From Ephemerocybe angulata (taxonomy: Eukaryota > Basidiomycota > Agaricomycetes > Agaricales > Psathyrellaceae), in assembly GCA_013368325.1 (NCBI GenBank), contig JAACJK010000005.1, positions 372,001-436,000 on the forward strand: 64,000 nt of DNA, given 5' to 3'. The notes under the pieces are model-generated. The model was given only the letters and a program-made list of their open reading frames with translations. It made no database searches and had not been told where the DNA came from. Numbering within the stretch: the first letter of the stretch is position 1; the number at the start of each line of letters is the position of its first letter. A program made the translations under genes and the position numbers. This document shows, one piece after another, positions 40,098-64,000 of the stretch.

Positions 40098-41996
40098 TTA
40101 TTCGGTTATCTCAATGCGACGTAGGTCATCCAACCATCCAGATATGAGCCCACAGGCAGAAGTTTCTGTTATTCCTTGATAGGAAACTCCGGGAACCTCG
40201 CAGAGGGTTTGCATCCACCAAGGCAAGTCGCAGGAAAGGAGGTCTGCCTTGGACGCAGGGGTTAAGTTTGACATAGCGCCACTCAGTAGACTGGATTGCA
40301 CGACCACAACACTGAACGTATTGTAGAAATCCACAGCCTCCTCCTCGGTAAGTGCACATTCCAGTGCTCTGGCTACGAGAGGCAAGTCCCGTCACATTGG
40401 TCAGATGGAGGACCGTCTTATCATGTGTTTTGGACTGGAACTCACCCTTGAGTACGTGCACACAACGGGCAATAAGTAGAGAGGTTCCCGTTTTCTCGCT
40501 GATGTAGAGATCAACGCAGCGTCGACGACTGGACAGGAACTCTTCGAATGATCGATGATAAAAGTGGAACTTGGTCTTCAGGTCGTCCCGCGGTGGAATA
40601 GCCAACAGTGAAGAAACGTTTTCTAAAAGGGCGTCCGCTTCCCCCGGGTACGATGAGAGTAGAGCTCTCCAAAAGAATGCCGGGCGGGGCACATCCAGCA
40701 GTTTCCAACCTAGGGTGTCAGCAACATAACCTTCAGCAAACACTTTTTTCGCAATAATCGTGATCCAAGTAGCCAAGAGACGAGGATCAGGGCAGCGGTT
40801 CATGATGGAGGTGTAAAGCAAATCCAGGGGTGCAAGCGGATTCGGCTGTTTCGTATTGGTGCATATCCCGATCTCAAGAACTTGCTTCAACAGTAGCTGT
40901 GGGTTCCTTGAAGGTCCATCAACATACCGGATAACCGTGGATGCGTAGATGAACTGCCCGGAAGCGCTCTTGACCAGGAGTCTTATCACATCCTCGGATG
41001 GCCATGAAGTGGGAAGGGCAGGGTGCCTGAGCCGGATTTCTGCGAATTTAGCCCTCAAAAAAAGCGCAACGTCGCTCTCGGGGTCGTATTTGCCATCGAG
41101 AAATATCTCTAGGAAGGTCCTGGTGGTAGGGCGGGAGAAAAAGCGGCGAATGGCGGGGTCTGGACGACTAAAAAGGATGATGCGGAAGGGAAAGACCGGT
41201 TCATTCATCATGTGGAGAAGGGCCTCTAAGATTTCGACCTGCTCGTCTTCGTTAGTCCGTGGGGCCTCTCTCCTCTTGCGGATGTGTTTCCCGGTTGCTG
41301 GCTCGTCACCTTCAGATGGAGGAGCTTCGCATTCATCCAGCCCGTCAATGATGACGACCTTTGGGATGGATAGAAATGGCGCTATCGATCGACGCGGACC
41401 AAGGATTAGGGCCTCGAGCTGGTCTTTCAGTCGTAGCTCAAATATAGCAGGATCGCGCCCAATGGCGAGCTCGATCTCCAGAGAAGCGCCTTGGAAGCAT
41501 TCGTGGGGAACAAGCTGATACGCCAACGTCGGTACGAGGTATCGCTTCAACCGCCGCCTCGCATCCCCCGAAAATGACGAGAAGAAGAAAGCGCCCGCCA
41601 GCATACCCTGTTCACTGCACGTTTCTGCAACTGAACCAGCAATCGCCGTCTTCCCAGTCCCCGCTGGGCCAGTAACCCACAGAATATCCTTCTTCGGGTT
41701 GGAATCGTCAACGAGAGCATCGTGTGATGCCCAAGCGACAATGCTGTCTTGCACAGCAACCCTCGTCTCTGGGTGACACTTGGGTGCGTCGCATGGGTCA
41801 TCGGAATTGTGCAATGCACCAACAGCGATGTATGGTTTAAGGTCTATATGATTTGACTCAGTCTTCTCGTTTAACGACACTGCAAGTACCACGTACGCTG
41901 TCTTGCGCCGTCGGGTACAGGTGGTGGTAGGGTGCGGTTGTCGATGTAGTCTCCCCCGACCGTGACGAAAGTGTTATCTCCTGAAGGGCCAGTCAT
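40098..41996 (-). CDS. NACHT-domain NTPase (STAND/NLR-like protein)
   Basis: Signal-transducing ATPase of the NACHT class, often linked in fungi to non-self recognition. Exons 41996-41897, 41843-40446 and 40372-40098 give 590 residues in one frame. The N-terminus VTVGGDYIDNRT is of the short form common in agaricomycete NACHT proteins. The P-loop GPAGTGKTA is at about residue 92 and the Walker B VVIIDGLDEC about 90 residues later, then FRIILFSRPDPAIRRFF, SGQFIYASTVIRYV, HFYHRSFEEFL, and the C-terminal WWMQTLCEVPGVSY. No ankyrin, WD40 or TPR repeats follow, so the C-terminal sensor typical of NLRs is missing or very short. An alternative in-frame ATG lies at 42071. Confidence 0.85.
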
Positions 41997-45047: not shown

Positions 45048-45358
45048 ATGCATCTGAACATCATCACGCTCCTTCCATTGTTTGTTGCTTTGGCATCGAG
45101 TGCGAACGGCTACTACGCCGATGTATGTGCTTCACCCAGAACCCTTTTAATACTACGCTAACTACCAAGATTTTTGTACAGGAATTCGACGCCAGGGACT
45201 ATGTCGACGGGCTCAGTACTCGCGAAATTAATCAAGAGCTTCAACGTCGCGAAATAATCACAGAGCTCGCCGAGTTCTCATCCAGGGATCTACTGGATGC
45301 AATTTCGATCCAGCTCGAGCGCCGAACCAACAAACGCGGTGTCGCCACCACTAGCTGA
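45048..45358 (+). CDS. Small secreted protein, 83 residues
   Basis: Exons 45048-45122 and 45182-45358. A clear signal peptide (MHLNIITLLPLFVALASSANG) is followed by a charged, helix-prone mature part with no cysteine. It has an imperfect internal repeat (EFDARDYVDGLSTREIN and EFSSRDLLDAISIQLE) and dibasic sites (LQRREI, LERRTNKRG) that could be Kex2 cleavage points. No family is known to me. Its last codons, AGC TGA, lie within the left terminus of the KDZ element at 45353, so its natural 3' end may have been replaced by the insertion, or the gene may belong to the element. Confidence 0.75.
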
Positions 45359-45417
45359 CATTTCTGTCCACAACGTTGTGGTTGTTGCCCCTCATGGTTG
45401 TCCACAATACTGTGGTT
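45353..45417 (+). repeat. Left terminal inver repeat of the KDZ element
   Basis: About 65 bp, matching the reverse complement of 58492-58555 with blocks of mismatch at its positions 22-28 and 44-46. A further TTGTGGACAAT in inverse orientation lies at about 45448. Confidence 0.85.
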
Positions 45418-45699
45418 GCGTGCTCCAGGCCTTTTGGACCCCCGGTATTGTGGACAATGATTGATTCGCTGTCACAGTCCTCCCGTCTTAGCCCTCGCTT
45501 CTATTCCCTCCAAATGCTTTGCTTAGTCACGCTCCTCCCCTCGTTTGCGCTGGCTTCTATTCCCTGCCAATAGCTCAAATAGGACCGGCCTGTCATACAA
45601 GAGAAACTTCTTCCTGTCTTGCCCCATGCTTCTTCGCTGACAGAATCAATCCATCTTGAGAGTGCGATAGGCTATATTTACTATGCGTTGCGTGCCAAA

Positions 45700-46318
45700 T
45701 CGGGGTCGCTAAAAACATAGCACGGCGTATAGAATGCCTCGAATTTCCTTCGCGCGCCTTCATGCCCGAAGGGGCGTCGAGCCTTTATGCATATTCCGGG
45801 GTCACGTAGACCCTCAGGGTGTCGGAATGGGCTCAAAATTGAGGTCGCAGGCGCGCGAAAAACATAGCGCGGCATATGCCGAATGCCTCAAATTTTCCTT
45901 CGCGCGCCTTCAGCCTCATGTTCGAAAAGGCGTCGAGCCTTTACGCATATTCCGGGGTCACGTAGACCCTCAGGGTGTCGGAATGGGCTCAAAATTGAGG
46001 TCGCAGGCGCGCGAAAAACATAGCGCGGCATATGCCGAATGCCTCGAATTTTCCTTCGCGCGCCTTCAGCCTCATGTTCGAAAAGGCGTCGAGCCTTTAC
46101 GCATATTCCGGGGTCACGTAGACCCTCAGGGTGTCGGAATGGGCTCAAAATTGAGGTCGCAGGCGCGCGAAAAACATAGCGCGGCATATGCCGAATGCCT
46201 CGAATTTTCCTTCGCGCGCCTTCAGCCTCATGTTCGAAAAGGCGTCGAGCCTTTACGCATATTCCGGGGTCACGTAGACCCTCAGGGTGTCGGAATGGGC
46301 TCAAAAATGAGATCACGG
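45700..46318. repeat. Subterminal tandem array of 156 bp units
   Basis: About four units; the marker GAGGTCGCAG starts at 45841, 45997 and 46153, exactly 156 bp apart, with a diverged first unit and a truncated last one. Because 156 is divisible by three, both strands stay open across the array (52-residue repeats such as FRGHVDPQGVGMGSK), which I read as a by-product, not a gene. It sits between the left terminus and the 3' end of the transposase gene. Confidence 0.9.
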
Positions 46319-46385
46319 CCATGCTTTTTTTTTTTTTTGAAAACATACAGCATGAATTAAACATATCCTAATATTATCCTTCACT

Positions 46386-49300
46386 CTATGTACAGCATTC
46401 GACAATTTCTGAGTCCATCTCAAGCCTTGCTATTAAATCCCCATGAATCTCCCTCGATTTCGACTGCATCGCCTCGCGCATTGCCGCCTGTCGCCACGCA
46501 AATGCGGCTTTCCCACGGTTGGTTCTCTTCCTATCCTCGACCTCCCATTGCTGATACGGTTGGAGCGTTGGATCAGTTGGTGCGTCCACTAAGGCGGTAT
46601 ATCTCTCGGCCCGATCTCTCCACCTCCCTGCATCCCACCCAAAGAACTTTTCCACCCGCCGCATCTCCTCACCGAGTAAAAGGCACTCCTCCTGCCATCG
46701 TTGAGCTCGTGCTCGTGTCCGACAGAACTCGATACGTAGGGCTAAAATGGTACAAGTAAGCATCAACACTGTGTTTAGTGATTCATAGTGAGCATACCTG
46801 TATTCGCAATCTCCGAGATGTCATGCCCGGTACCAGCGACAGTCCATATCCAAGTCAATGACCTTCCACCCTCGCCTGTCCCGCTAATGTCAAGTGACGT
46901 CACTGCGGCAACATCGGCGTCTTCCAAAGGCAGAAGAACCTGGCGCCAGGTTTTCTCGCTCTGGAGATCAGATAGGTCACCACCCTCGAGAGCATCCCAT
47001 AACCGCGTCAGTCGCTCTCGACATTTCCTGTATTTCGCCACATCTCGCCCGATTCTATCTGATATATCCTGGAGCAGGGTGTTGCTGCGAGTGTTCGCCT
47101 CAGTCCCAGAGGCATACATAGCCTTTGAATTCTCCATATGTGCCTGGTAGAGAAGCATCCCACGTAAGCTCTTGAGTGTTGACTCACCCTGCGCGATCCG
47201 GAAATGGAATTCGTAGCGAAGGAGCCGATGATCATGCGCCTTCACTGTAGCGGCGCTGTCAGACGGAAGGTAAAGGGGAATTTTCCACGGGGTCAAAACA
47301 GACGAGTCCCGGTCCTCCGAATCGTCTCGCAGAGGAACTGTCTGGGGTGCGTAGAGGCGCTGAAGCATAAGCCATCCTTCGATCCGGCGGTATAGGGCAT
47401 TACCCCGCTCCATCACAGTGGTTCGCTCAATGTCAGTCGACCCCGAGCTCAGCTCTCCAAAGTCCCTCTCGAGGCGTCGCCTTTGAGGGTGTTAGAAATA
47501 CTAAGCCCTCTGCGAATAATAGTGTGATACGCACTGAGCCTCCTCAATTTCCAACCCTTGCAAGACAAACACGCTCGGCGAGACATTGCCGTGAACTGCT
47601 TCGATGGTCCCGGCAGTCAAGGCCTTTTGATCTTCTTCCGCGAGGCGCGCTCGAACGCTTGCGGTTGTCAGAACTGCGGAGATTCGTTAGTGTCTGGTGT
47701 CAAACAGCCCGCCCCTCCGGAAGCCGTACCTGTCTGTTCATTGTTGTACGGATTGAATGATTCATGGTCTTTCTCCCACTCCTGGACCTGGAGTGTCCAC
47801 GCCTTTCGGGAGATTAATGGAAGAGCTGCCGCAAAGTCTCTGAACGCATCCACTTGCTCCTTACGCTTTGCAATTGCTGCGACGGCCCGACTTGCCAGGG
47901 TATGTGCTATTGCCCGAATGAGAAGCTACTCTGATTAATGACCGTTTGATGAACACGTACACATGCCAACGGTCTTCGTCCAATTTAGATCGCCAAAGTT
48001 ATCGTCGAGGGTGTCACGACGATTTCCCGGGCCCATTTCACGGGTGCTCGCCGCCAGTCGGTTTGCGAGCGACCATCCTCTCTCTGGAGCCTCCCCATCC
48101 GTTCGACCTACGCCAGGTGTGAGGTTGAAAGAGAAGTCCGTCTGACACGATGCCACATGTGCCGCGAGATGGAACTTGGGCACGAGGCATGTTACCTTGT
48201 AGCCGTGCTTACCGGTAAACACGTTCTTTGGGTAGCGCTGACAGCGTTCCATTAGATGTTGGATCCATTGACACCCAATGTCGTAGGACAGATTAAGTAT
48301 CTTGGGGATGAGGGGTTGCGAGCGCAGTGTAGAAGTCATAACATAATCCATATTGGCATATCTACGGCCCAGTCAGTGAGTGGGTTATGCGTCAACATAA
48401 AAACTCTACACATACCTCTCGCCCTTTTGCAGATCAACAGCAGCCATGGGCCGTCGCATGTCATGACGGCTACACTGTGCCGCCCCGAGGCCGCTTGCAG
48501 CAATACCGCGCCCTCCTCGGCTGTTCGCAGACTTGATGGCATCGTGGTTGCTACAATCGCTCTTCTCGTCAGCGGTTCTCCCATAGATCTTTATGTACGC
48601 CTGAAAGATAGTCTCCCAAACAAGATACGCATATCCACGGTTGAACCCCGGGTCACGGTCATCGTTCGAGACCTCCTTGCGCCTCAGGCGGAAGTTAGCG
48701 TCCATTGCCAGAAAAAGGGCGAAGAGCCACCTGAATAAAGGTCAAATTCAGTCCAGCGCCTCGCAAAAGAATCCAAGTTACTCTTACCTCCGTGCACGAG
48801 GAATCGACGCCCATTTTGCAGGCATATTGATACCCACTTGTGGACATGCCGGGCACAAGAGTGCTAACTCGCCTTCTTTGGTCTGGCCCACTCCACCGGG
48901 CTCGTGCCCCCGACCTCCCCTCTTCATGCCCCGTAGATGGCGGAATTCATGCACCATTCGCATAAATTCTGAGTTTCGATCCTACGTAATACTGTCAGGG
49001 AGAGGAAGACTGACGACAAAATGGTACATACCTTAAGCGCTAAACTGCCGCACTGATCAGCGCGACCATGGGGAGTCACATTCCAAGTGTTATCGGTTCG
49101 CCGAAAAATAGCAACCAGGAATTCATACGCCGATATCTTCCCGGTAAACGATAACATCTGAAAGGTCTCAAGGACGCGAAAGGTGCAGGCGGTGCGTGGG
49201 TCTATTGTTGTCGATGGGAAAAGGCGCTCGCGCAGAAGCTGTTGGACGGGTGTGCTGCCCTGATGACAACCGCAGAAGTCCAGGCCAACGGGGTGTACGC

Positions 49301-50201
49301 CGTCGCTGTCAATAATATAGAAATTATCATCGAAGGCGGCGCGCCTCTGTGAGCACGGAACTCCAGCGACATGACCCAGTTGGATCCGCAAGCCTAGGCT
49401 CTTGAGCGTACAGCGCTCAAAGTATCTCCCGGTCCACCTCTAATAGTGAGATATAAGCCTCTGTTGGGGTACTACTAAAAGTATACTCACCTCTATACGG
49501 TGTAGGTACACCCTAGTATGGTCCTTCACAATGCACGACGCGCACCATGTTGCCGTTGGCGTGCAATCGCGACACCTGAACAACACCTCAGCAACTTCTG
49601 CGCTACAGTTGGCGCCATGGCAGCGCCGCTCGGATTCTCCATCGGATTCTCCGTCACCAAACGCCTCAAGCCGAAGCATCTCGTCGACGTATTCATCAAG
49701 GCGGGCAGTAAAGAGCTTGAGGGGGTCGTCCTGAAGCCGAATCAGTCAATAGGACGACAAGAGAAGCCAGTCTCTTACCGCTTGAGTTCGTTTTCGTTTC
49801 TTCTCCTCTGGCGTCGAGTCTGAGCCTGATTCCGTTGTGGACACAGGCTCAGGTTGGTCCCAGAGCGAGGATTCCATGCCCAGCTCATTTAGCCATACAC
49901 TGTTGCTGTCAAGCGAAGGGTGGTTCATCCCCCCGCCGTTGTCGTTATCGAGACGACGGCTGTCACTTGGGTAGTCGTCATCATCGACATCTTCAACGGA
50001 TGCGGTAAGCTTAGAGCGCTTCTTGGTCGGAGAGTGAGGGACACTGGCAACCGCTTCGCTTTCCTGAAGATTGCCGGAGACCTTCTCATAGTGGCGATGC
50101 AGGTCTTGATACGCTGATTCGGCCTCTGGTTGGGTGGGGTCCTCGACATCGTCGCCGTAGAGGTGAAACTCGGAGACTCTGGCCTTCTTTCTAGGGGGCA
50201 T
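46386..50201 (-). CDS. KDZ-family transposase, 1111 residues
   Basis: Exons on the minus strand: 50201-49779, 49730-49491, 49439-49032, 48981-48788, 48730-48416, 48361-47961, 47906-47730, 47673-47535, 47480-46798 and 46741-46386; lengths sum to 1112 codons with no internal stop. Start MPPRKKARVSEFHLYGDD. A Cys cluster (CHGANC, FRCRDC, WCASC) precedes the RNase H-like core, followed by DFCGCHQ and CPACPQ. Likely catalytic acidic residues lie in LAMDANFRL, LSYDIGCQW and RTDGEAPERGW (assignment inferred). VPKFHLAAH and STREMGPGNRRDTLDD are family hallmarks. A Glu/Arg-rich C-terminal region (RWQEECLLLGEEMRRVE) closes it. Intactness suggests recent or current activity. Confidence 0.92.
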
Positions 50202-50470
50202 TGTTGTTTGATTCGAGGCTACTGAGCTGTAGCTATATAGCCCATGACTAACTCGTGGATTCTGCGCATGTACAAGGGGATCGAATTCTAAGACGAACTG
50301 CTAGACTAACGCGTGGACTCTGCGCAACGTACAACGGGATCGATTCATAGGAGACAAAGGTAAACTGGAACGAGCGAATCACACACTAAGTACTCGCACG
50401 TAAATAGAAGCAAGAATTGACGGAAGAAAGAGATGATAGCAGATATCAGCGAACGGCACACTCGTAACCA

Positions 50471-51384
50471 TCAAGCAAGGTCAGCCAAGATACTCGACTC
50501 GTCCTCTTCCTCAGACCAGACAGCAGCAACGACAAAGCCATCCTCATCATCAGAGATGATGATCACCTCGGCCGCGGCTGTGCGGATGTCGGCCCCCATA
50601 CCGACGGTGTCCTTCATGTCGTCCTCGTCATCAGAGATGACAATCGCCTCAGCGTCAGTGGGACCGGCAGTGGTGGTGGCGTTGGCTGGAGCGCCGGGGG
50701 TGTTAATGGGCCCGTTGGTAACGTCCATGGCGTTGATGTTGGCATTTTCGTCGATGATTTCGACATCCTCGTCGGAGTCGACTTCTTCGAGATTGAATTC
50801 GGTCATCTTGAGTAAAACCTTCTCGCTCTCCCTGCGCAGGCGCTACCGATCCCGAAAATGAGGGAATGCACAGGATACAAAGGCATGATATACTCACGGG
50901 GTCGGTGTCCTTGACTGCCTCCTGGAGGGAACGGAGCTCCTTGAGGAGCTTTTTCTATTACTCAAAATTAACCTTTGAAATGCGACGGGAGGACAATGGA
51001 AAGAGACGTACCCCAATGATGTTGAACTGCTTGCAGGGCAAAGCAAACAGGATCTCCCAGTCAAGCAAGGGGGTGATTCTATGGGTGGCGAAGTATGCCC
51101 AATCCATGTGCGCTTTGATAGCCTTGGCGTTCATTTCGATCATCAGTGTGAAGTCGACCTAGAAGTGTGCTCGGACTCACATCTTTGATCTCTCGAAGAC
51201 GCTTGCCCAGGTCTGGAGTCCACGGTTCCGGCCAGGCCATGAAGTACCTACCGTAGACCTGGTTGAGAAACTCCGGGCTTCGCTTCTGACCCTTCGCCTG
51301 CCTGAACCAGAACGAGCAGAAATTGACAAAGCGCAACTGCCCTTCCAGTTGAAACTTGTAGATAGTGGGGAACCTCCTTGGCAT
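50471..51384 (-). CDS. KDZ cargo: 247-residue protein with SUMO-interacting-like motifs
   Basis: Exons 51384-51181, 51122-51012, 50954-50898 and 50842-50471 join in phase. The N-terminal half is globular-looking and aromatic (RFPTIYKFQLEGQLRFVNFC, YFMAWPEPW, MDWAYFATHRITPLLDWEI), with no family recognised. A Lys/Leu/Arg helix follows (KKLLKELRSLQEAVKDTD). The tail is acidic and holds two textbook SUMO-interacting patterns, AIVISDDED and VIIISDDED, plus VEIIDEN. The first intron could instead use a nearer acceptor at 51159, but that would make a 22 nt intron. The start may lie further upstream in a short 5' exon. It lies downstream of nothing in operon-like fashion; its promoter faces the 204-residue gene. 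Confidence 0.75.
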
Positions 51385-51876
51385 CTACAAAAAGGTCCGT
51401 CATTGACTCCGGCAACTTAACCACAGCCGACGCGAACGTACCTTGATGGTGCTCGGCAGCGGCGGTGAGTTTAAAGTGTGAGGGCAGGGTATCAGTAAGA
51501 CGCGTAACGGTAAGAAGGGGTATAACAGTAAGACGAGGTAACAGTAAGACGCAGAAGGGGGATAAAAATCGTTCGATTCCAGCCAACGGGTTTTACATGG
51601 TTCATGCTTACCAAGCCGCTTCGAAAGGCCAAATTCGAGCCAAAGCTTGAGCCAAACTCGAGCCAAAGCATGAGCCCGAAAACATATGGGCCTCGTATAG
51701 AGTCAATACTAACCTGTTATTCCCCAGAAAATGGCCATTAAGTTTCAAAAAAATATACCATTCAGTCAATCTATATCTTTCGGCTATATTCCGATATCAG
51801 AATAAAAGTAAGACAAGTTCTCGATTGAAGCTAATTACACTCGCGCTTTCGTACTTGATCTTGAACTCCTACGACC
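51385..51876. promoter_or_regulatory. Divergent promoter between two cargo genes
   Basis: A 492 bp gap between head-to-head cargo genes. It contains repeated GTAAGACG(C/A) words (51497-51550) and repeated CGAGCCAAAGC blocks near 51640-51670. No gene of its own. Confidence 0.4.
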
Positions 51877-52651
51877 ATGGGCCGCCCCCGAATGTACCAC
51901 ACCCCTGAACAAGTACGGGAGGCCAACAAGAGGAAAAGTAAGAAGTACTACGACGAGTATGTTATGCTCTGAAGCCCGTTAGGACCCCATTGACATTGCA
52001 ATTGCAGGAATAAGGACTATATCAACCATTCGAGGTTCATGAAGCGCCGATCTGCGAGAGATAGCTCCGAGAGGTATGTGCATATGATACCGACAAGTGA
52101 GACCATTAGATACATTTCTGTCAACAGTGCTACGACACCGCTAAGCTCCAAACCCAAGCGAGAAGTGACCGAGCAAGAGTACAGTATCGTATTGCTGATG
52201 GGCTTTCCCACCGCCTTTCTGATCACCGCTTAGGAAACACAGGCACCAGGTCCGATACTGGGTAAAGCGAGTCGAGTCTCTGGTTCCTCGGGTTCAAGGC
52301 CTATTAGGAGACCAGCCGGTCACCGAATATCTCAAGAGCACCTGCGAGGAATTCAAGGCCGGAAGCACACACGATCTTGATGCAGCCAAGGAGGCCATCA
52401 ACTTGCGGTCATCCTCATTCGATGAAGTCCTCGGAAAGGCAGAAACATGCCACTCCAAGCTCCTGGCATTGGTAGGAGTGGGAGTAGAAACAAAAAGAGC
52501 ATCTGCGGTCATTAAGGACATACAAACCATTGTGGTCGAGATCAACGAGCTTTGGTGTGCGGCCGCTATTGATCACCAAGAAATGATCAAGGAGTTTGAC
52601 GGCACCAAGCTCGGGTTCCAGGTTCACGGAGTCAGTCTGACGACGATATAG
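51877..52651 (+). CDS. KDZ cargo: basic coiled protein, 204 residues
   Basis: Exons 51877-51956, 52008-52073, 52128-52178 and 52234-52651 give an open frame of exactly 205 codons. It begins MGRPRMYHTPEQVREANKRK, an AT-hook-like GRPR plus a basic helix (KRKSKKYYDENKDYINHSR), so DNA binding is possible. The rest is helical and charged (YWVKRVESLVPRVQGLL, FDEVLGKAETCHSKLL) with no family I can name. Similar MGRPR-start proteins are common near repeats in mushroom genomes (from memory, unverified). The third exon junctions were chosen because only that pair keeps the frame open. Confidence 0.7.
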
Positions 52652-53019
52652 TTCCCTTCGGCATCTGTAGCAGCTCTATTCTATTGGTGCCTATCATATA
52701 CAGTTGATGAGACGTTGAGAGGGTTCTCATTTGACATTGAAAGCCACAGGTACGTGCAAAGGAAGGGGGTAAGGGTATAATCATTGGGGTTTCTAGGGAC
52801 ATTTTACAGGGAACGGGCACTACAACATAGGTTTTCTACGGACATTTTTGAGAGATATACACGAGAGACGACGAACACAGCAGTCATGAGGCGTGATACG
52901 GGCAGTCGAGACAGCGATACATGAGATACAGGAATACCGGAGACGGGGCGGAAGAACGACACAAGATGCTCAAGAAGGGGAAGGAGAAGACAGTCCGCCC
53001 GGCCAATCGAAGTGCACAG
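52652..53019. other. Gap between convergent cargo genes
   Basis: 3' tails of the 204-residue gene and the hybrid-binding-domain gene. A partly repeated block (GGGTTTCTAGGGACATTTTA and GGTTTTCTACGGACATTTTT) is seen at 52788 and 52832. Confidence 0.4.
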
Positions 53020-54081
53020 CTAAGTCTGCTGGACGCTGCGCACGTTGTTGCTGGTGAGGGCTTCCTGAAAGGCGGCGACGGCGTCCTCCTGAGAGGCGTA
53101 CTTGCGGTAACAGGCCCCTCGAACACCGGAGACGAGCGGTTGAACAGAGTGCCTGAACACGGTGAGGAATCAGTCAAGGTCGACAGCGTAAGATGTGAAC
53201 ATGGACTTACCAACCCTGGAACACACCAACCTGGAGGCCAACAGTGACGACATACCAGGTTTCGCGGGCTGGGCGAACCAAGTTATGAGTGTTACAGTTA
53301 ACACAAACGAAGCCACTAATGGGGTTCGAAGCGTCTTGGGGGCGAGGCGCAGAGCCAACGGCCCCGCCAACAGGGATGCTGGCCGGGCTGAGTGTAACAA
53401 CAGCTCCGCTCGGCGAGGTGATGGTCGCACCCGCGGGCAGCGCTGCAGGAAGAGGAGGGAGGCCAGAGAGCGCGCGCCCCCCGGCGGAGAGGGTGTTGGA
53501 AGGAGCAGGTACCGGAAGAGGAGGGAGGCCAGAGAGCGCGCGTCCCCCGGCGGAGAGGGTGTTGGGAGGGGCAGGTGCCGCAGCCCCGGCTTCAAGGGCG
53601 GCTCCAGCTCCAGTGTCGGTAGCGGTAGGGGGGGCCCCGGAGTCGATGGCGGCAGGCGCTGTGACCGTGGTCGCTGTGGGATTCAACTGTTAGGCGATTG
53701 ATTCTCAACAAGTTGAAAGGAATCAGACGTACCGTCATCAGTGCTGGAGGGAGCGGGTGCGCTCACATCCAGCCCCAGGGAACGAAGCGCAGCAACGATG
53801 CACTCGATCCGAGTCTGGGAAGAAAGGGTAGGCGGCGCCTCCTCCCCGATGGCTACGCCCACCCCAGGAGGAGGCGGAGAACCAGCCGATGTCGACTCTA
53901 TGGCCGGTGTCAGTCAATGAACCCGTTCTTGAACATAAACATATAGACACTTACCGCGCACCATGTCTTCATGGGGGGAAGAAACGTTGACACCGAGGGC
54001 GCGCAGGGTGGACATGAGGTCCGTCAAGGTAATGGTGCCATTGATACGAGGAGTGGAGGGGGTTTCTTTCTGTTCAGTCAT
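53020..54081 (-). CDS. KDZ cargo: protein with C-terminal RNase H1 N-terminal-like (hybrid-binding) domain
   Basis: Exons 54081-53955, 53897-53733, 53673-53211 and 53152-53020; 295 residues. The N-terminal half is Ala/Pro/Ser/Thr-rich and disordered, with a near-perfect tandem repeat NTLSAGGRALSGLPPLP. The C-terminal 80 residues match the RNase H1 N-terminal / Cauli_VI fold: a CVNCNTHN Cys pair, then WYVVTVGLQVGVFQGW, VQPLVSGVRGACYRKY and SQEDAVAAFQEAL. That fold binds RNA/DNA hybrids or double-stranded nucleic acid. No RNase H catalytic domain follows. The exon 3 acceptor at 53674 (CCCACAG) was chosen because the nearer one breaks the frame. Confidence 0.82.
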
Positions 54082-54404
54082 GTTGGGGGATGATGGAATT
54101 GAAGTGAGGATGTAGACGTACGTCTTGAGACCCCAACCTTTATGGGAAATCGCCGTGGCGTAACGGGCAACTCCCTACCGTATTTGGCTCACCCGAGCGG
54201 AAGAATCCACATAATCGGCAACGGGCTCTGATTCTCCCCGATGACAGGACTTCTCTGCATAAGAGCGTCTCCCATCCTCGCCCAAGAAACCTATTCTTTC
54301 TCTCCTCCCAGAACAAGCACCAGCGTCCATTCCTAAAGGTATGATGATACGGATAAAAACCAGACTTGCGCGGACTCATCAACATCCGACTCATCGACAT
54401 GTAG
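54082..54404. other. Gap upstream of the hybrid-binding-domain gene
   Basis: Divergent upstream region of the 295-residue gene and the small frame at 54405. Nothing else supported. Confidence 0.35.
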
Positions 54405-54623
54405 ATGACAAAAAAGAACCAACTCACCAACTCCGAAAGGGCGATGCTTCTTAATCTCCTTCGAGGAACACAAGAAGAGAGGAAAAGAGAAGAAGAGCTG
54501 AGAAAGGCCCAGCAGGCCGCATTTTTCCAGAGCGTGATCGAGAGGCTTTTCGCCACCTGGCCTCCAAATGAGGACGAACCTGGCCGAATGAGTGACGAGG
54601 AAGAGAGGAGGGTAGAGGGATGA
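54405..54623 (+). CDS. Small frame, 72 residues, related to the start of the 973-residue cargo protein
   Basis: MTKKNQLTNSERAMLLNLLR leads to a Glu/Arg-rich helix and the motif FFQSVIERLFATWPP. This resembles FWLRILHEFFMLWP near the start of the protein encoded from 54987. It may be a separate small gene, a duplicated first exon, or a decayed N-terminus. It ends in a 66 bp tandem repeat (54578-54710) that duplicates its stop region. Confidence 0.4.
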   Translation: MTKKNQLTNSERAMLLNLLRGTQEERKREEELRKAQQAAFFQSVIERLFATWPPNEDEPGRMSDEEERRVEG

Positions 54624-54710
54624 GGGAGGGTAGTAACCTGGCCGAATGAGTGACGAGAAAGAGGGGAGGGTAGAGGGATTAGGGAGGGTAGTACCTGCGC
54701 AATATGATGC
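54578..54710. repeat. 66 bp tandem duplication
   Basis: A unit starting CCTGGCCGAATGAGTGACGA and ending GGGAGGGTAGTA occurs twice with few differences. Confidence 0.75.
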
Positions 54711-54817
54711 CCGTCTGCTTCTGAATGCTTGGATTTGACGTATTTAATGTAAGACGTCGTCGGACGGCGAGGTGTCTATCTTAATTAAGGTAAGAACGGT
54801 CTCGACCGCTAAGAAAT

Positions 54818-54898
54818 TACGTGGAGAGTGCCTGCACGGCTCAAACCTGAGACATTGAAGCTCGAGCCGGCGAGGGATTGTGCCGCAGCCTCTCCACA
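54818..54898. repeat. Long imperfect hairpin
   Basis: GTGGAGAGTGCCTGCACGGC at the left pairs with GTGCCGCAGCCTCTCCAC at the right, with a loop of about 45 nt. It looks tRNA-like in size, but the T-arm and anticodon arm do not form, so it is listed as a structured repeat only. Confidence 0.5.
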
Positions 54899-54986
54899 CG
54901 TCCATCCCAGTACCACTAGAAGCTCGACGAGGTGAGCTTAAAAGTTAAAATGGCACTGTAAATCACACTTACCGACATATGAAAAG

Positions 54987-57900
54987 ATGGTTTGGGCGAT
55001 CGACCAACCCGAGTTCCTCGCGAAGCATCGTCCTGAATTCGAGCGCTTGAAGAACACAAAAAGCTCAATGGGCGACTTCTGGCTGCGGATTCTACATGAG
55101 TTCTTCATGCTTTGGCCACTCCAGAGCGCCGAGGTGTTCCCCCCGCCGAAAGAGCCTGAGACGACTAAGAAAGGGAAGACGAGCCTTCGTCAGGAGTCAC
55201 CGGGACCGGTCGAGGTCGAGCCCGTGTTGACGAAGAAGCAATGGAAGGCGAAGAGAACGAAAGCAAGTTCACACCACGATCGTTCTCTAAATAAGTCTAA
55301 CATACACCGACAGCAAATCAAGTGGTGGTACTATAACACCACTTCCGACACACGGAAGAACAAGAAGGCCCGGGTCAACATCGTCGTTGCCGTCGGGAAG
55401 AAGGACCGTGTCCTGACAGAAGATCAGTTGTACTCGAAAAAATACTACCACACCCGGGTGAAGGCGAAGGTAGACGCTGCTCTGAAGAACATCAACGACG
55501 ACGACAAGCGAATTTCCATCACTTCTCAAGTCCTCCGCGAGACCTGGGAGAGCGAAACCCGCGCGATAAAAGACGAGATCAAGGCGGAGCATCAAAGACT
55601 GACCAAGGAGAAGAAGAAGCGAGACGATGTAATGAAGAAAGTGCTTTCGAGCAACGCACCCGTTGTGAATCCAGAGGAATTGGCAGTGTACGTCCTTCGA
55701 TGTTCCCGCTTGCGTTTCGTTGACTGACTAGTTATGTAGGACCCAGGAGGCGATGCAGGAGTTGATGGAGAGCTTCTGTGATGCCATGGCTGCAAAGACG
55801 GGCTGGGCGTTCTCCATCGTCGGGGGAGGGCCCATGGTATCGGTCCCAAACGCCCCCATCAGGGTGTGCACGTTCCACGTTGGGACTCCCGCGCGCCCGG
55901 AGACTTTTCGCTCCTGGTATGCCCCTTTCGACCAGGTGGTTGCTACCCCTTTTTCGTCTTTCTGCCACACCATCTTTCGTAAGTCGGATATGATACAGTA
56001 CAGGGGAGAGAAGCTGACATACCATATCTAGCCGAATCAGACCGTCTTCGAATGGCAATCGACATCGAACCCGGGAAGGTCGTCAGCCCTGACGCTCTGG
56101 CGGCCTCCGGCCGGACCCTCGGTCATCTCGCATATCAACAGCATGGAGCGCCATTCCAGGCAACACAGAACGCCGGCTCCTCCGCCCTGAATGCCAATCC
56201 GGTCCAAGCGGCGGCGGCGGTAAAGGATATGAGAGAAGACAGTGAACGGAGCGGTAGCGAGGACTACGACGATGCCGAGAGGGCGAGAGAGGTTGCGAAA
56301 GGGACTAAAAATGCGAAAAAGGGGAGAAAGCCGCGTAAGAAAGCGCCTAAGAAGGGGAAGGGGAAGGGGAAGGCACAGATCGAAAGCGAGGAGGAGAGCA
56401 CGGACTACGGCGATGACGAGCTTAAGGAGGTGGAAAGGAAGGGGACTGCGAAGGGAGCCTCGAACGTCGTAAGGGGGAAGGGGAAGGGAGGCGAGCCGGC
56501 GGGCGGGAGCAGTGGTGGATATGGGGCGCCTATTCCGGATCCGGAGTCCCACGGCCCGGGCGGGCCAGGGTTCGCCCATTCGGCGGAGTCAGGGTTCCAT
56601 GCACACGACTTTTCCAAGATGAACGGAAATGCGAATGGGGGATACCAGAGCCATCAACAAACGAACGGCTTTCCCAGCATGAGCCGAAACTCTCTGCTCG
56701 ACATGCTCCACAATGACTGGGACGAAGATTCTCAGGACGCAGGGGCCAGGTGGGGTCAGTTGCAGGCAGGCGCGAATGACGGTCTAGACCCCACACGTGG
56801 GTACGATCATTCCGGAGGCAGTGATCCGAAGTGGGCGATGGGGGACACGTTCCCAGCCGTTGGAGGTTCAGGAGGGGAGAGGGGAAGACCGGGAGGTGGA
56901 GCCAATGGGACGGGATACCTGAACACCACTGTCAATGCCCAATCAGGCAGAGGCGGGGCGTGGACGACGAATCCCGAGCAGTACGTGAGCGGGGCGCCTC
57001 CACCGAACCAGTACCCGTATCCCGACCACACGTACGCGGGCGGGGCGCCTCCACCGAACCAGTACCCGTACAACCGCGAGCACGCGTACGCGGGCGGGGC
57101 GCCTCCACCGAACCAGTACCCGTACAACCGCGAGCACGCGTACGCGGGCGGGGCGCCTCCACCGAACCAGTACCCAAATCCCGAGCATGCGTACGCGGGC
57201 GGGGCGCCTCCACCGAACCAGTACCCGTACAACCCGGGAGGGTTCGATAGCGGGAGGGGCGTGCCTTCGAACCCGATTGCCGGTGGAGGGGGGCAAGAAG
57301 CCAGTCCAGGAGGGCAGGGTATGAGCGCTGGTGATCCGCCGGTGCCGCAGACGAGCTCGGCCGTCAACGACCGAGACAGGTTTGTGCTACCAAACCCGTA
57401 TTCTCAGGATTCAGACGCCGAAGATGACATCCAGGGTGGGCCTAGCAACAAGGGAGCGATCAAGGGAGCGTCGGCTGGAAAAAGGGCGCGGGAGGAGGGT
57501 GTCCAGGAGCACCAGGTAGTGCCAGAAGACGAGGGAACGAGGGCGAAGCGAGCTAGGAAGAGTACTGGTAAGTTGCCTGAATGGATAGAGGAGGCTCGGA
57601 CGCACCTGTTGGCCCAGAGCGAGGACGAGAGCTGGGTCAAGGTCGTAGACCTATGGCATCGGTTTGAATCAGCAGCCTGCGCAATGGGAGGAGCCGGGAT
57701 GGGGCATCTCCCTGCCGCGGGAAGGCCTTTGGAGATAAGCAAGTGGTTGAAATGTCGTCAGTATGTCGCACGACCCGATATCGACGACGTACAGGCATTT
57801 GGGGATCAGTGGAAGCGGTGGTGGGCGGAGATGAAGGCAGGCAAAGGAAAGGGTAAGGTGGAAGGAAAGGTGGAATTGAAGGGGGTAAAGAAGGCGGGTC

Positions 57901-58013
57901 CGACTGGCATCGTCGTTGCGCTGATTGGGCTGGGGTGGTGGTCGGGAGAAAATGAATGGGCTGACGTGGTGGGCGATGTTCTGACGGTTCTGGGCAGGTG
58001 TGTCAGGACGTAG
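54987..58013 (+). CDS. KDZ cargo: 973-residue protein of unknown function
   Basis: Exons 54987-55687, 55740-55978 and 56032-58013; exactly 974 codons. An N-terminal part with FWLRILHEFFMLWP is followed by a Lys/Arg-rich segment and a folded-looking middle (MQELMESFCDAMAAKTGWAF, IVGGGPM, FHVGTPARPETF, FDQVVATPFSSFCHTIFP). A basic/acidic low-complexity region comes next, then five tandem units of about 18 residues built on GGAPPPNQYPY, and a Trp-rich C-terminus (WVKVVDLWHRFE, DQWKRWWAEMKAG, LIGLGWWSG). It resembles large repeated proteins of agaricomycete genomes, but I cannot assign a function. No TET/JBP dioxygenase motif is present. Confidence 0.8.
56994..57235 (+). repeat. In-frame GGAPPPNQYP minisatellite
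   Basis: Five units of 48-54 bp with the core GGGGCGCCTCCACCGAACCA inside the 973-residue gene. Unit length stays a multiple of three, so the frame is kept. Confidence 0.9.
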
Positions 58014-58491
58014 ATATTCCCACGGTTCGTCCAGATGGGTAATCGCCCTCTTTCTTGGTATCCTCTTGTGTTTGGCAACGCTCTTTTGTTTCTTGGTACT
58101 TTGAATGAGACTGGTGTATCTCCCTCGATGTATTGTCAGAGTTCTTAGGGTTGAGATATTATATGTTTGTTTCAATTTTTGTATGTCCCTCCAACTTCCT
58201 GATGCCTAAATCGGTCGCGGCGCGCAAATGGGATCATTTGATGGCTGGGATTGACAGGGAAGGATAGGAGGGTTTTGACAGCTGAGAAGAAGCCGGGAGA
58301 GCGACATTGATCTGTCGCGTTTGGGCATGCATGGAAGAATGGTTTGGCTATTTATACACAGTAGGCCTATTTATACACGGTAGGTATAGGGAGGGAGGGG
58401 AGACGTGTTGTCCACAATTCTGGGGTTAGCTTTGTGGTTCTTTGATGGGGTGTTGTCCACAATCCTGTGGTTACGATTACCCTGTGGCAGT
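58014..58491. other. Right subterminal region of the KDZ element
   Basis: 3' tail of the 973-residue gene and subterminal repeats (TTGTCCACAAT at about 58410 and 58454, and CTATTTATACACRGTAGG twice near 58350). Confidence 0.5.
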
Positions 58492-58555
58492 AACCACAAA
58501 TTGTGGACAGCTATGAGGGGCAACAACCGTGCTATTGTGGACAAAAATGACAGCT
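58492..58555 (-). repeat. Right terminal inverted repeat of the KDZ element
   Basis: Reverse complement of the left terminus (see 45353-45417). Its outer end AAAATGACAGCT includes the start codon of the small zinc-finger gene. Confidence 0.85.
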
Positions 58556-58821
58556 ACCCCTCGTGTCGCCAGCAACCCCCATACTCGCTGGGGAAAGAAC
58601 GAGCCGATTGACCCCGAGAAGAGTCATCCAGTCCACAAGCCCACATGTGCAATTTGCAATAAAGAGTTTCCCACTCAAGAGGATGTGCGTACCATGCTTG
58701 ATTGTGTATGATGCATGGCATCTTTGGAAATTGGATGGCTGATTGACTTCTTGGTTTGTAGGCAACGCAACATCAAAACGACGCGCATCCTATGCCTCAG
58801 AGCTCGAAGCGTCGCCGTTAA
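58547..58821 (+). CDS. Small C2H2 zinc-finger protein, 65 residues
   Basis: Exons 58547-58684 and 58762-58821. Start MTATPRVASNPHTRWGKNEP; one finger, CAICNKEFPTQEDATQHQND then AH, fits C-x2-C-x12-H-x4-H, with the intron inside the finger; it ends in a basic KRRR tail. The ATG and first codons lie in the right terminus of the KDZ element, so the element may donate the start, or the gene may have been cut by insertion and restarted. Confidence 0.65.
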
Positions 58822-59199: not shown

Positions 59200-59525
59200 C
59201 TGCCCGCCTGTACTCGTGCCGCTAGCTTCAATTACCTCCTCTTGCCGCCAAGGCCACTTGTTTGATGCCTCTCGGTACCTCCGACCGGCACCTCCCAGCA
59301 ACGGATCTCTGGATCTAAGTACATACCTCTGCGCCTCCTAGCGCCACCTAGTGTCTCTCTTGAGTCTTCGCCTCTCGCCTCTTGCCTCTTGCCTCTTGCC
59401 TCTTGCCTCTTGCCTCTTGCCTCTTGCCTCTTGCCTCTTGCCTCTCAGTGCCTTGAGCATCTGTGCTTTATGAGAAAGACATAAATAAATCTGGCAGGCA
59501 CATCTACGCTCGTAGTATTCTGATG
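59200..59525. repeat. NACHT-segment flanking repeat, copy 3, with heptamer microsatellite
   Basis: Homologous to 42550-42815. It contains about ten tandem copies of GCCTCTT at about 59370-59445, absent from the other copies. Confidence 0.8.
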
Positions 59526-62409: not shown

Positions 62410-64000
62410 TTACAGACAGAATGGCAAAAGAACAGGTTGCACTGGTGAAAGTAAAATCAGAATCAGTTGGACTCCAGTAGTCTTGAGACATAGGTTATTC
62501 ATGTATATGTGTATGCTGTCTAACCATAGATAAAGGAACCCGGAGGTCATTTTCTGCCCGAGGTATGACACCCCAGGGACCTCAGAGAGCTTTTCCATCC
62601 ACCAAGAAGAGTCGCATGCAAGGAGGTCCGCCTTGAGCGAGGGAATCACAAAAGCATCACAGAAGACTTTCCGAGCCACAAAAACTTGAAGGAAACGGGT
62701 GTAGAATACCACGGCTTCCTCAGTCGCTGCGAGGGAGAAAGCCGGTCCGTTGCCTGCAGTTGAAAAGGATACGGTCAGATCAAGTCTTGTACACCGGAAA
62801 CGCCCTCGAACATACCTTTCAACACTTGCACAGCGCGTACTTGAAGGAGGGAATCCCTCATTTCATTGCTGACGTAGAGGCTCGTACAGCGTCGAGGACT
62901 GTTAAGGAACTCTCCAAATGATCAATGGTAAAAGTGGAATTCGGTGTTAAAATCGTCGCGCGGAGGAATGGCCATCAGGGAAGACACGTTTTCCAGTAGG
63001 GAATCTGCCTCCCCAGGGTACGAACAGAGTAGTGCCCTCCAAAAGAATGCTGAGCGGGGTGAGACATCTACAGACCAGCCTATAAAGCCGACAGAGGTAT
63101 ATGGTCCTTCCTCTAGATCCGCTTCAATAATTGCTAGCCAGGTTGCTAAGAGGCGCGGATCAGGGCTGCGGTTCATAATGGCGGTGTAAAGCAGGTCCAA
63201 TGGTGCAAGAGGATTCGGGCTATCTGGATCGCTGCGCATCCCGGTCTCGAGGACTTGCTTAAGCAGGAGCTGTGGGTTCCTTGAAGGTCCATCAACGAAC
63301 CGGATGACAGTGGCTACGTAGATGAACTGCCCCGAAGCCATCTTAACCAGGAGTCTGATTACATCTTCGGATGGCCATGAAGTGGGAATGGCAGGGTTTC
63401 GGAGCCGAATTTCAGCGAATTTGGCTCTCAGAAAGAGCGCGATATCGCTGTCGGGATCGTATTTATTATCGAAGAATATTTCTTGATAGAAGCCGATGGT
63501 GTGATGAGACTCGAAGAAGTGTCGAATGACGGGTTCTGGGCGGCTGAGGAGTAGAATACGGAGAGGGAAGGCAGCGTGAATGATGAGCTGTTGGAGGGCT
63601 TCTAAGATCTCGAGCTGCTCATCTTCATCTCTCCGGGGAATGGCCCTTCCTTTGGTTTCAGGTCGGGGTGCTTGACATTCATCGAGTCCGTCGATGATAA
63701 TTACCATTGGGGCGGGCGGAGGCATCTCTGGTGGACGGTGCCAAGCTCGTAGGGGTCGCAGGATCAATGTCTCGAGCTGATCCCCGAGTCGCTGCTCAAA
63801 AGTTGCAGGATCGTGTTGGATGGCCCGCTCGACCTCCCACGAGACGTCCCGGAAGCATTCGAGGCGTACAAGCTGGTACGCCAGCGTCGGCACGAGGTAT
63901 CACTTTGACCTCCGCCTCGCATTGCCCGAGAACGACGAGAAAAAGAACGCGCCCGCGAGTAGCCCACTTTTATTGCACGTCTCCGCGATCGACCCTGCGA
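62410..64000 (-). pseudogene. Second NACHT NTPase, interrupted by two in-frame stops; 5' part off the window
   Basis: Close paralog of the gene at 40098-41996. Visible exons run from 64000 to 62816 and 62753 to 62410. The frame is open except for TGA at 63902-63900 (after FSGNARRRSK) and TGA at 62924-62922 (in HFYH*SF); the intact copy has CGA at both places. Walker B MVIIIDGLDEC, LRILLLSRPEPVIRHFF and WWMEKLSEVPGVSY are kept. The P-loop lies beyond the right edge. Apart from the two stops, the reading frame and the last intron are preserved, so inactivation is recent. Confidence 0.85.

Follow-up and report, generated by a model that had tools for sequence, protein, structure and literature searches.

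A TET/JBP-free KDZ transposon with four candidate accessory genes interrupts a host gene of Ephemerocybe angulata

The DNA analysed here is a stretch of 64,000 nucleotides from Ephemerocybe angulata (assembly GCA_013368325.1, contig JAACJK010000005.1, positions 372,001 to 436,000 of the forward strand), which is referred to below as the window. It contains a KDZ-type transposon that lies within a host gene and comprises five multi-exon genes, designated A to E, between inverted ends (Table 1). The models of these genes were predicted from the sequence alone. Gene A specifies a predicted transposase of exactly 1111 codons on ten exons of the minus strand, as the preliminary description of this DNA had stated, and the spliced frames of B, C, D and E contain no internal stop, in agreement with its claim of four further multi-exon genes that close in frame. 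A comparison with Pfam assigned to gene A the KDZ domain (PF18758; 5.6e-60, score 203.2 against a cut-off of 26.6 bits) and the CxC2 domain (PF18803; 1.1e-37), that is, the N-terminal CxC cysteine cluster. The protein retains the conserved DANF, SYDxxCQW and GEAPERGW blocks. Three conserved acidic blocks, which we take to be catalytic, were recognized in the window protein and in four of five other transposases inspected, with the first block lacking at C218 in the protein as modelled. On the basis of its domain and cysteine cluster, the element is assigned to the KDZ (Kyakuja-Dileera-Zisupton) superfamily, which was reportedly defined by Iyer et al. in 2014.

The whole five-gene unit represents one insertion with 7-bp duplications into a host gene. 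When the flanks are joined without the element, the result is an open reading frame for 137 residues, hydrophobic at its start and resembling a C2H2 finger at its end, although this finger remained below the Pfam cut-offs. The interrupted gene belongs to a family with 121 matched stretches in the same genome at E <= 0.1 (the gene itself included), several members of which are located on contig C209. The closest paralog, C209:100772-101074, aligns over 168 columns on the left with 96% identity and over 128 columns on the right with 84%; it is uninterrupted across the insertion point and carries a single GTGTCGC. Because this uninterrupted paralog contains one copy only, the duplication is read as GTGTCGC and the element as the interval between the two copies in the window. 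The preliminary description had placed the borders at 45353 and 58555; the element itself stands, and its extent was corrected by 7 nt more at each end. A first reading of the duplication as 9 bp was revised to 7 bp after a comparison of four elements and the paralog, since the two extra matching bases are due to the element beginning with CA and the host continuing with CA, where the paralog has A instead of C; such a 9-mer is common to 74 of 200,000 random pairs of places. Two further paralogs, C209:179530 and C87:101589, are also uninterrupted, but their alignments do not span the insertion point.

The two inverted repeat arms of the element are imperfect, each 57 nt in length and 82% complementary, and the motif AGCTGNCATTTNTGTCCACAA, when up to three mismatches are allowed, matches twice in the 64-kb window, once per end and in opposite orientation, whereas 100 shuffles gave a mean of 0.00 matches. 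Nine copies of a second motif, TGTCCACAA, were found in the element, seven of which are at most about 155 bp away from an end, as compared with one copy in the remaining 50,783 bases of the window. Variants of this motif also occur near the ends of the C152 and C202 elements described below, which were examined together with the window element. A scan against Rfam gave no match. Taken together, the inverted ends, the KDZ/CxC2 transposase, the 7-bp duplication, the restored host frame and the empty paralogous site bear out the earlier proposal of a complete KDZ transposon of about 13.2 kb.

Table 1. Positions of the KDZ element, its parts and its host gene in the window, and of related elements elsewhere in the genome
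Feature	Position	Strand	Remarks
Whole element	45346..58562		13,217 bp; termini 5'-CAC...CTC-3'; inverted ends, with 7-bp duplication immediately outside
Target-site duplication, left copy (GTGTCGC)	45339..45345	+	exact match to right copy; one copy at paralogous empty site
Target-site duplication, right copy (GTGTCGC)	58563..58569	+	exact match to left copy
Inverted repeat arm, transposase side	45352..45408	+	
Inverted repeat arm, gene E side	58500..58556	-	
Subterminal TGTCCACAA motifs, transposase-side end	45365..45456		45365 (+), 45399 (+), 45456 (-)
Subterminal TGTCCACAA motifs, gene E-side end	near 58409, 58454, 58509, 58543		four motifs
Tandem array	45707..46311		156-bp unit, 3.9 copies, 95% matches; between left end and transposase stop
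Gene A, predicted KDZ transposase	46386..50201	-	10 exons, 1111 aa; CxC2 and KDZ domains
Gene B	50471..51384	-	4 exons, 247 aa; acidic tail with three SUMO-interaction-like motifs; no Pfam match
Gene C	51877..52651	+	4 exons, 204 aa; basic MGRPRxYxTPEE-like start, remainder helical as predicted for homolog P0003; no Pfam family above cut-off
Gene D	53020..54081	-	4 exons, 295 aa; Cys-x2-Cys, then RNase H1 N-terminal (Cauli_VI) domain
Gene E	54987..58013	+	3 exons, 973 aa; N-terminal ~340 aa and C-terminal part conserved, middle of low complexity; no Pfam match
Interrupted host gene, left part	45048..45338	+	short protein, hydrophobic start, multi-copy family
Interrupted host gene, right part	58570..58821	+	C2H2-finger-like end
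C152 element	C152:41487-55569	inverted	14,083 bp; five genes, open over aligned parts
C202 element	C202:54673-66579		11,907 bp; matches to five-gene set
C214 element	C214:192241-203373		11,133 bp; matches to five-gene set, B weak, D and E partial

Protein searches revealed four further loci of the genome at which all five genes have matches, arranged and oriented as in the window, and the transposases encoded there are 76% (C152), 63% (C196), 64% (C202) and 45% (C214) identical to the gene A product of the window. At C152 the identities of the other proteins amount to 53% for B, 62% for C, 64% for D and 47% for E, and the intron numbers of A to E in the automatic models (9, 3, 3, 2 and 4) can be set beside those of the window (9, 3, 3, 3 and 2), the numbers and not the positions being compared. 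The automatic model of gene D at C152 contained two stops, both of which are removed by a 60-nt intron with proper splice sites, the third in D, that was placed by hand. An exact 7-bp duplication is present outside both termini of all four elements for which both ends were found (window, C152, C202 and C214), and these four share an end grammar, in which the transposase-side end starts with 5'-CAC and the gene E-side end with 5'-GAG on the other strand; the termini were set partly with the duplication in view. Apparent duplication matches of 8-9 nt in three elements reflect a chance agreement of the next bases. The relatives thus share gene order and end grammar with the window element at low sequence identity. 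Searches of the 58.67-Mb assembly with the ends of the element retrieved only the element itself, its internal repeat and the opposite end, such a miss being no proof of rarity. The preliminary description had looked to other loci sharing both ends; these were not found as repeated DNA, but three loci combine the end grammar with the gene order and the duplication.

The recurrence of the set also bears on the explanation that the locus is an assembly artefact, or a KDZ gene with unrelated neighbours enclosed by inverted repeats that arose by chance. The finding of a single DNA-level copy in the assembly would fit this explanation, but it is countered by the exact 7-bp duplications and the common end grammar in four of four elements, by the empty paralogous site and by the repetition of the gene order at other loci, and we regard it as extremely improbable. 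Chance inverted repeats in particular were rejected in view of the duplications, the end grammar and the outcome of the AGCTGNCATTTNTGTCCACAA shuffles.

Besides the five complete sets, partial ones were detected. At the C218 locus only A, D and E are present, the transposase being in reversed orientation, and C67:694-696 kb contains remnants of C and D. In the region C152:1007-1043 kb a B-C-D cluster is situated about 33 kb apart from its gene E, and no KDZ gene was found beside B in the stretch examined; this set was perhaps split by a nested insertion. Spliced alignments of A, B and E at C67 and of B and C at C218 implied absurd introns and were left out of the counts.

The surroundings of the insertion show two further features. 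Reading frames of the NACHT/NPHP3_N type (NLR-like) flank the element on both sides, at 40126-41892 and 62922-63893 of the window. Additionally, a heptamer repeat, CTCTTGC, is present in 12.6 copies at 59357-59445, with the interrupted host gene about 0.5 kb upstream.

The five genes have diverged jointly. Across the five loci, that is, 10 locus pairs, the pairwise identity matrices of the 10 gene pairs correlate with coefficients of 0.77-0.98 (permutation ranks 1 to 8 of 120). The ratio of nonsynonymous to synonymous divergence (dN/dS) was finite in 20 of 50 gene-by-locus-pair comparisons and below 1 in all of these (0.10-0.85; many of them rough owing to high dS), while the other 30 were saturated synonymously. 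Between the window and C152, the proportion of synonymous differences (pS) is 0.67-0.78, with a dN of 0.17 for gene A (dS saturated) and of 0.29-0.50 for B to E, which yields rough dN/dS values of about 0.11-0.23 for the latter. The pair C196 and C202 gave dN/dS values of 0.10 (A), 0.85 (B), 0.39 (C), 0.52 (D) and 0.60 (E). Joint movement and selection of the set, as claimed in the preliminary description, are supported by the duplication enclosing the five genes, the empty site, the recurrence at four loci, the correlated identities and the computable dN/dS values, which suggest that the five genes are maintained and transferred as one set.

The genomic neighbourhood of the homologs of B to E was compared with the distribution of KDZ genes, for which 104 places are contained among the matches listed, one per locus as judged by eye (170 matches reported; 150 of 175 candidates scored). 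Kinds of KDZ genes were grouped by scores, exon pattern and neighbours. Homologs of gene C occupy 17 places, with C112:510688 (E 0.02) and short pieces of already counted genes left out, and 14 of these are separated by no more than 12 kb from a listed KDZ place; each of the 14 lies 5' of the transposase, on the other strand. They comprise the five five-gene loci and nine places beside another kind of KDZ gene, whose domain lacks the intron of the window gene and is contained almost entirely in a single open frame. The three exceptions are a copy located 6 kb from the start of a contig, the split set at C152 and the remnant at C67. Homologs of gene E are within the same distance of a listed KDZ place at 10 of 11 places, the single miss being the C152 split set; those at C11, C106 and C107 have near-equal spacings of about 7.7 kb to the KDZ gene, and those at C218 and C55 (E 0.005) depart from the usual arrangement in their strands. 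The B and D genes of C214, which were found by spliced alignment only, are outside these lists.

These data can be confronted with the explanation that B to E are passengers, namely host genes that were captured once by an ancestral element and play no role in its movement. KDZ elements are known to have captured TET/JBP genes (PMC12730594), neither C nor E contains a domain that hints at transposition, and B evolves almost neutrally in one locus pair. On the other hand, order and orientation of the genes are kept despite large divergence, the computable dN/dS values are all below 1, the other kind of KDZ gene has gene C as its neighbour in nine cases, with side and orientation unchanged, gene E also accompanies KDZ genes at C11, C106 and C107, and among the listed places a nearby KDZ gene is missing in just three of 17 cases for C and one of 11 for E. 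Passenger status thus seems quite unlikely to us, and B to E, which had been introduced as cargo, resemble accessory genes conserved within the element. Nor were they encountered as ordinary single-copy host genes at element-free positions, the result that had been named in advance as counting against the preliminary description.

Elements with TET/JBP genes are arranged differently. Of the 25 TET/JBP places over the cut-off of 30, 20 have a listed KDZ place at a distance of no more than 12 kb. All 20 are on the strand opposite to the transposase, 19 lie 3' of it, and in 17 the distance downstream from the KDZ domain is 3.4-4.2 kb. A TET/JBP gene downstream and on the opposite strand is a consistent architecture of the TET-positive group. 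None of the 25 places is situated within 60 kb of any listed B to E place, and no match to Tet_JBP was obtained among the five proteins of the window element. Since TET genes are mostly found 3' of KDZ and B to E 5' of KDZ, and the listed places of the two lie apart, two architectures coexist in this genome, one with TET downstream and one with B to E upstream of the transposase.

The second kind of KDZ element, which has a gene C homolog, was inspected in one copy. Over 6.5 kb from the C homolog onward B, D and E were not detected, the scores of E and D being at the level of shuffled controls and that of B reaching 33-34 without a control of its own; accordingly, not every KDZ element needs all four genes. 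Two copies of this second kind, C16:718332-725247 and C117:1492294-1499220, share 99.6% identity in a comparison of 5.9 kb that starts at the gene C homolog, and in both the homolog has almost the same distance from the transposase domain. The pair is a candidate for recent movement or duplication; no border was reached in this comparison, and one contig ends within the match.

The deduced proteins B to E offer some indications of their roles. SUMO-interaction motifs consist of a hydrophobic core beside acidic residues, and gene B contains three motifs of the type VIIISDDED in the window and three at similar places in C152 (P 0.0004 and 0.0002, respectively, in 5000 shuffles of the tail); B is thus a putative SUMO-interacting protein. 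The RNase H1 N-terminal domain with which gene D ends (PF01693, 1.8e-10) was also recognized in the D genes of all three further elements tested, C202, C196 and C152, for C152 in a piece of D. Comparison with solved RNase HI/H1 domains gave weak matches to 1qhk (E 0.0056) and 3bsu (E 0.17), with a Tyr and a Trp retained that are presumably the hybrid-binding residues. Gene D, in which an intron divides the domain, was not among the matches of a genome-wide search for the RNase H1 N-terminal family. Gene C gave two Pfam matches below the cut-offs, to Invariant surface glycoprotein and DUF4032, and its E. angulata homolog P0003 is predicted to be helical, with a predicted local distance difference test score (pLDDT) of 70.4. 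Relatives of gene E occur in Ephemerocybe angulata, Coprinopsis cinerea, Suillus paluster and Mycena crocata; they have no precomputed Pfam domain, and none was found in the three that were scanned directly. The N-terminal 341 residues of the C202 gene E product are 98.8% identical to an E. angulata protein. The nucleic-acid and SUMO-related functions that had been suggested for the set consequently find a basis in D and B, whereas C and E have no recognised domain.

A further explanation holds that the accessory proteins, chiefly B and D, mainly defeat host silencing by RNA interference, heterochromatin or the SUMO pathway and do not aid the transposition reaction. TET/JBP, the other gene borne by KDZ elements, has been interpreted in this manner (PMC12730594), the listed places of B to E and of TET lie apart in this genome, and the domain of D, of a type that binds hybrids or double-stranded RNA, as well as the SUMO-like motifs of B would suit such a role. 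This reasoning proceeds from domains only, however, and gene C, which is found beside two kinds of KDZ gene and has a basic start, more closely resembles a DNA-binding partner. A predominant function against silencing is in our opinion a tentative alternative, somewhat unlikely as the chief role of the set.

In view of the conserved set across loci, the positions of C and E beside KDZ genes and the separation from TET/JBP, the supposed cargo is best understood as accessory genes that belong to the element itself. We therefore favour, with a probability of roughly 80%, the interpretation that the window contains a complete, probably autonomous KDZ DNA transposon of a TET/JBP-free lineage, whose proteins B to E are accessory and move with A as one unit. 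Within this interpretation, A would act as a transposase of the cut-and-paste type through the ends of the element and may bind the subterminal motifs of the TGTCCACAA type. The short basic protein C, the most frequent neighbour of KDZ, is a probable partner of A at these motifs, and the large protein E, which is also encoded beside other KDZ genes, probably a second partner at the ends. D may bind RNA-DNA hybrids or double-stranded RNA, and B may engage SUMO or SUMO-modified chromatin proteins. In the least certain step, B and D would help transposition or evade silencing by a route other than DNA demethylation through TET. A stronger version, in which A to E form an obligatory five-protein machine for transposition and anti-silencing, with D sensing RNA-DNA hybrids or double-stranded RNA and B recruiting or blocking the SUMO pathway, would amount to a second, TET-independent escape from fungal genome defence; we consider it speculative and unlikely.

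Several observations weigh against the interpretation of an autonomous element with accessory proteins. Transposition and the functions of the genes are deduced from sequence comparisons. As no second DNA-level copy was found, recent multiplication of this family is not in evidence. The set at C196 is accompanied by a transposase that is truncated (its C-terminus is missing), and the transposase-side end and duplication were not found there. At C214, B is 25% identical over 119 aa, D 37% in the linker only and E 31% over residues 109-377 only. Gene B is poorly conserved in general, as the C214 value illustrates; its dN/dS of 0.85 is near neutral in the pair of C202 with C196, the locus of the damaged transposase, and its C196 counterpart contains one SUMO-like motif only (P 0.21). 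B, C and E have no domain recognised by Pfam. The model of the C homolog P0003 is weak, with none of 422 matches in a fold search at E <= 0.001, as is that of the E homolog P0004 (pLDDT 53.5). The chance values of the neighbourhood analysis assume even placement and are too small because transposons cluster. A listed KDZ place lies within 12 kb in five of eight cases for D and four of five for B, the places away from KDZ being the C152 split set, the C67 remnant and one piece of D at C143; the latter, C143:377424-377708, matches the beginning of gene D over a short length, has its closest listed KDZ place about 100 kb away and is unexplained. Finally, the failure to detect B, D and E in the second-kind copy also speaks against a general dependence of KDZ elements on the set.

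The element was further compared with known members of the superfamily. TET-positive Kyakuja elements of Agaricomycetes have a 7-bp duplication, CA..TG termini and no inverted repeats and carry TET/JBP (Kojima 2025, PMC12730594). The window element resembles them in its KDZ transposase, its Agaricomycete host, the 7-bp duplication, one 5'-CA terminus and the presence of extra genes, but differs in its inverted repeats, its ..CTC end (the ends being CA and TC in place of 5'-CA..TG-3'), the lack of TET/JBP and the location of B to E 5' of the transposase. Zisupton and the TET-positive Dileera element Zisupton-1_PGr are described with 8-bp duplications (PMC12730594); a KDZ transposase is common to both and to the window element, and inverted repeats are shared with Zisupton, whereas all four window-type elements have 7 bp. 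Since the features of Kyakuja were found in part and the duplication length of Zisupton and Dileera was not, the element is filed as KDZ, TET-free, without a subgroup.

The elements KDZ1, KDZ2 and KDZ3 of Cryptococcus neoformans are mobile, about 9-11 kb in length and provided with inverted ends; they have CxC1, inverted repeats of 139-241 bp and duplications of 8 bp (KDZ1) or 4-8 bp (KDZ2 and KDZ3) (PMC12810828). The window element shares the KDZ transposase and the inverted ends, but has CxC2, 57-nt arms and a 7-bp duplication, and in addition B to E, whereas the available text of that paper describes only the transposase. Because KDZ elements of this length are mobile in Cryptococcus, the size of the window element alone is not unusual, contrary to the preliminary description. 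In Pleurotus ostreatus all intact KDZ genes are preceded by a CxC2 region, which is the type found in the window, and the part of that account at hand describes no conserved accessory set (PMC7641404). Likewise, KDZ elements of the agaric Marasmius oreades possess characterised terminal inverted repeat motifs, as does the window element its terminal inverted repeats; accessory genes are not mentioned in the corresponding part of the text (PMC8290104). In the literature searched, the scope of which did not include the founding KDZ paper, there was no earlier description of the B to E set with KDZ, which is a weak negative. PIF/Harbinger, En/Spm and MuDR elements need a second protein beside the transposase. 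They provide a functional analogy only, in the form of an accessory DNA-binding or regulatory protein, as their transposases are unrelated and imply no common membership; a two-protein organisation is described for Harbinger/Nuwa (PMC12730594).

KDZ elements are numerous in this genome, with about 104 places among the matches listed, and in the literature covered, as far as its accessible text shows, they are described mainly as carriers of TET/JBP. A TET-free architecture with four conserved partners, exact ends and an empty site at the gene level provides a concrete, testable unit for KDZ transposition. The same unit bears on the role of these hypothetical proteins of mushrooms, and if B and D indeed act on SUMO and RNA-DNA hybrids, they would represent another route of a transposon against silencing.

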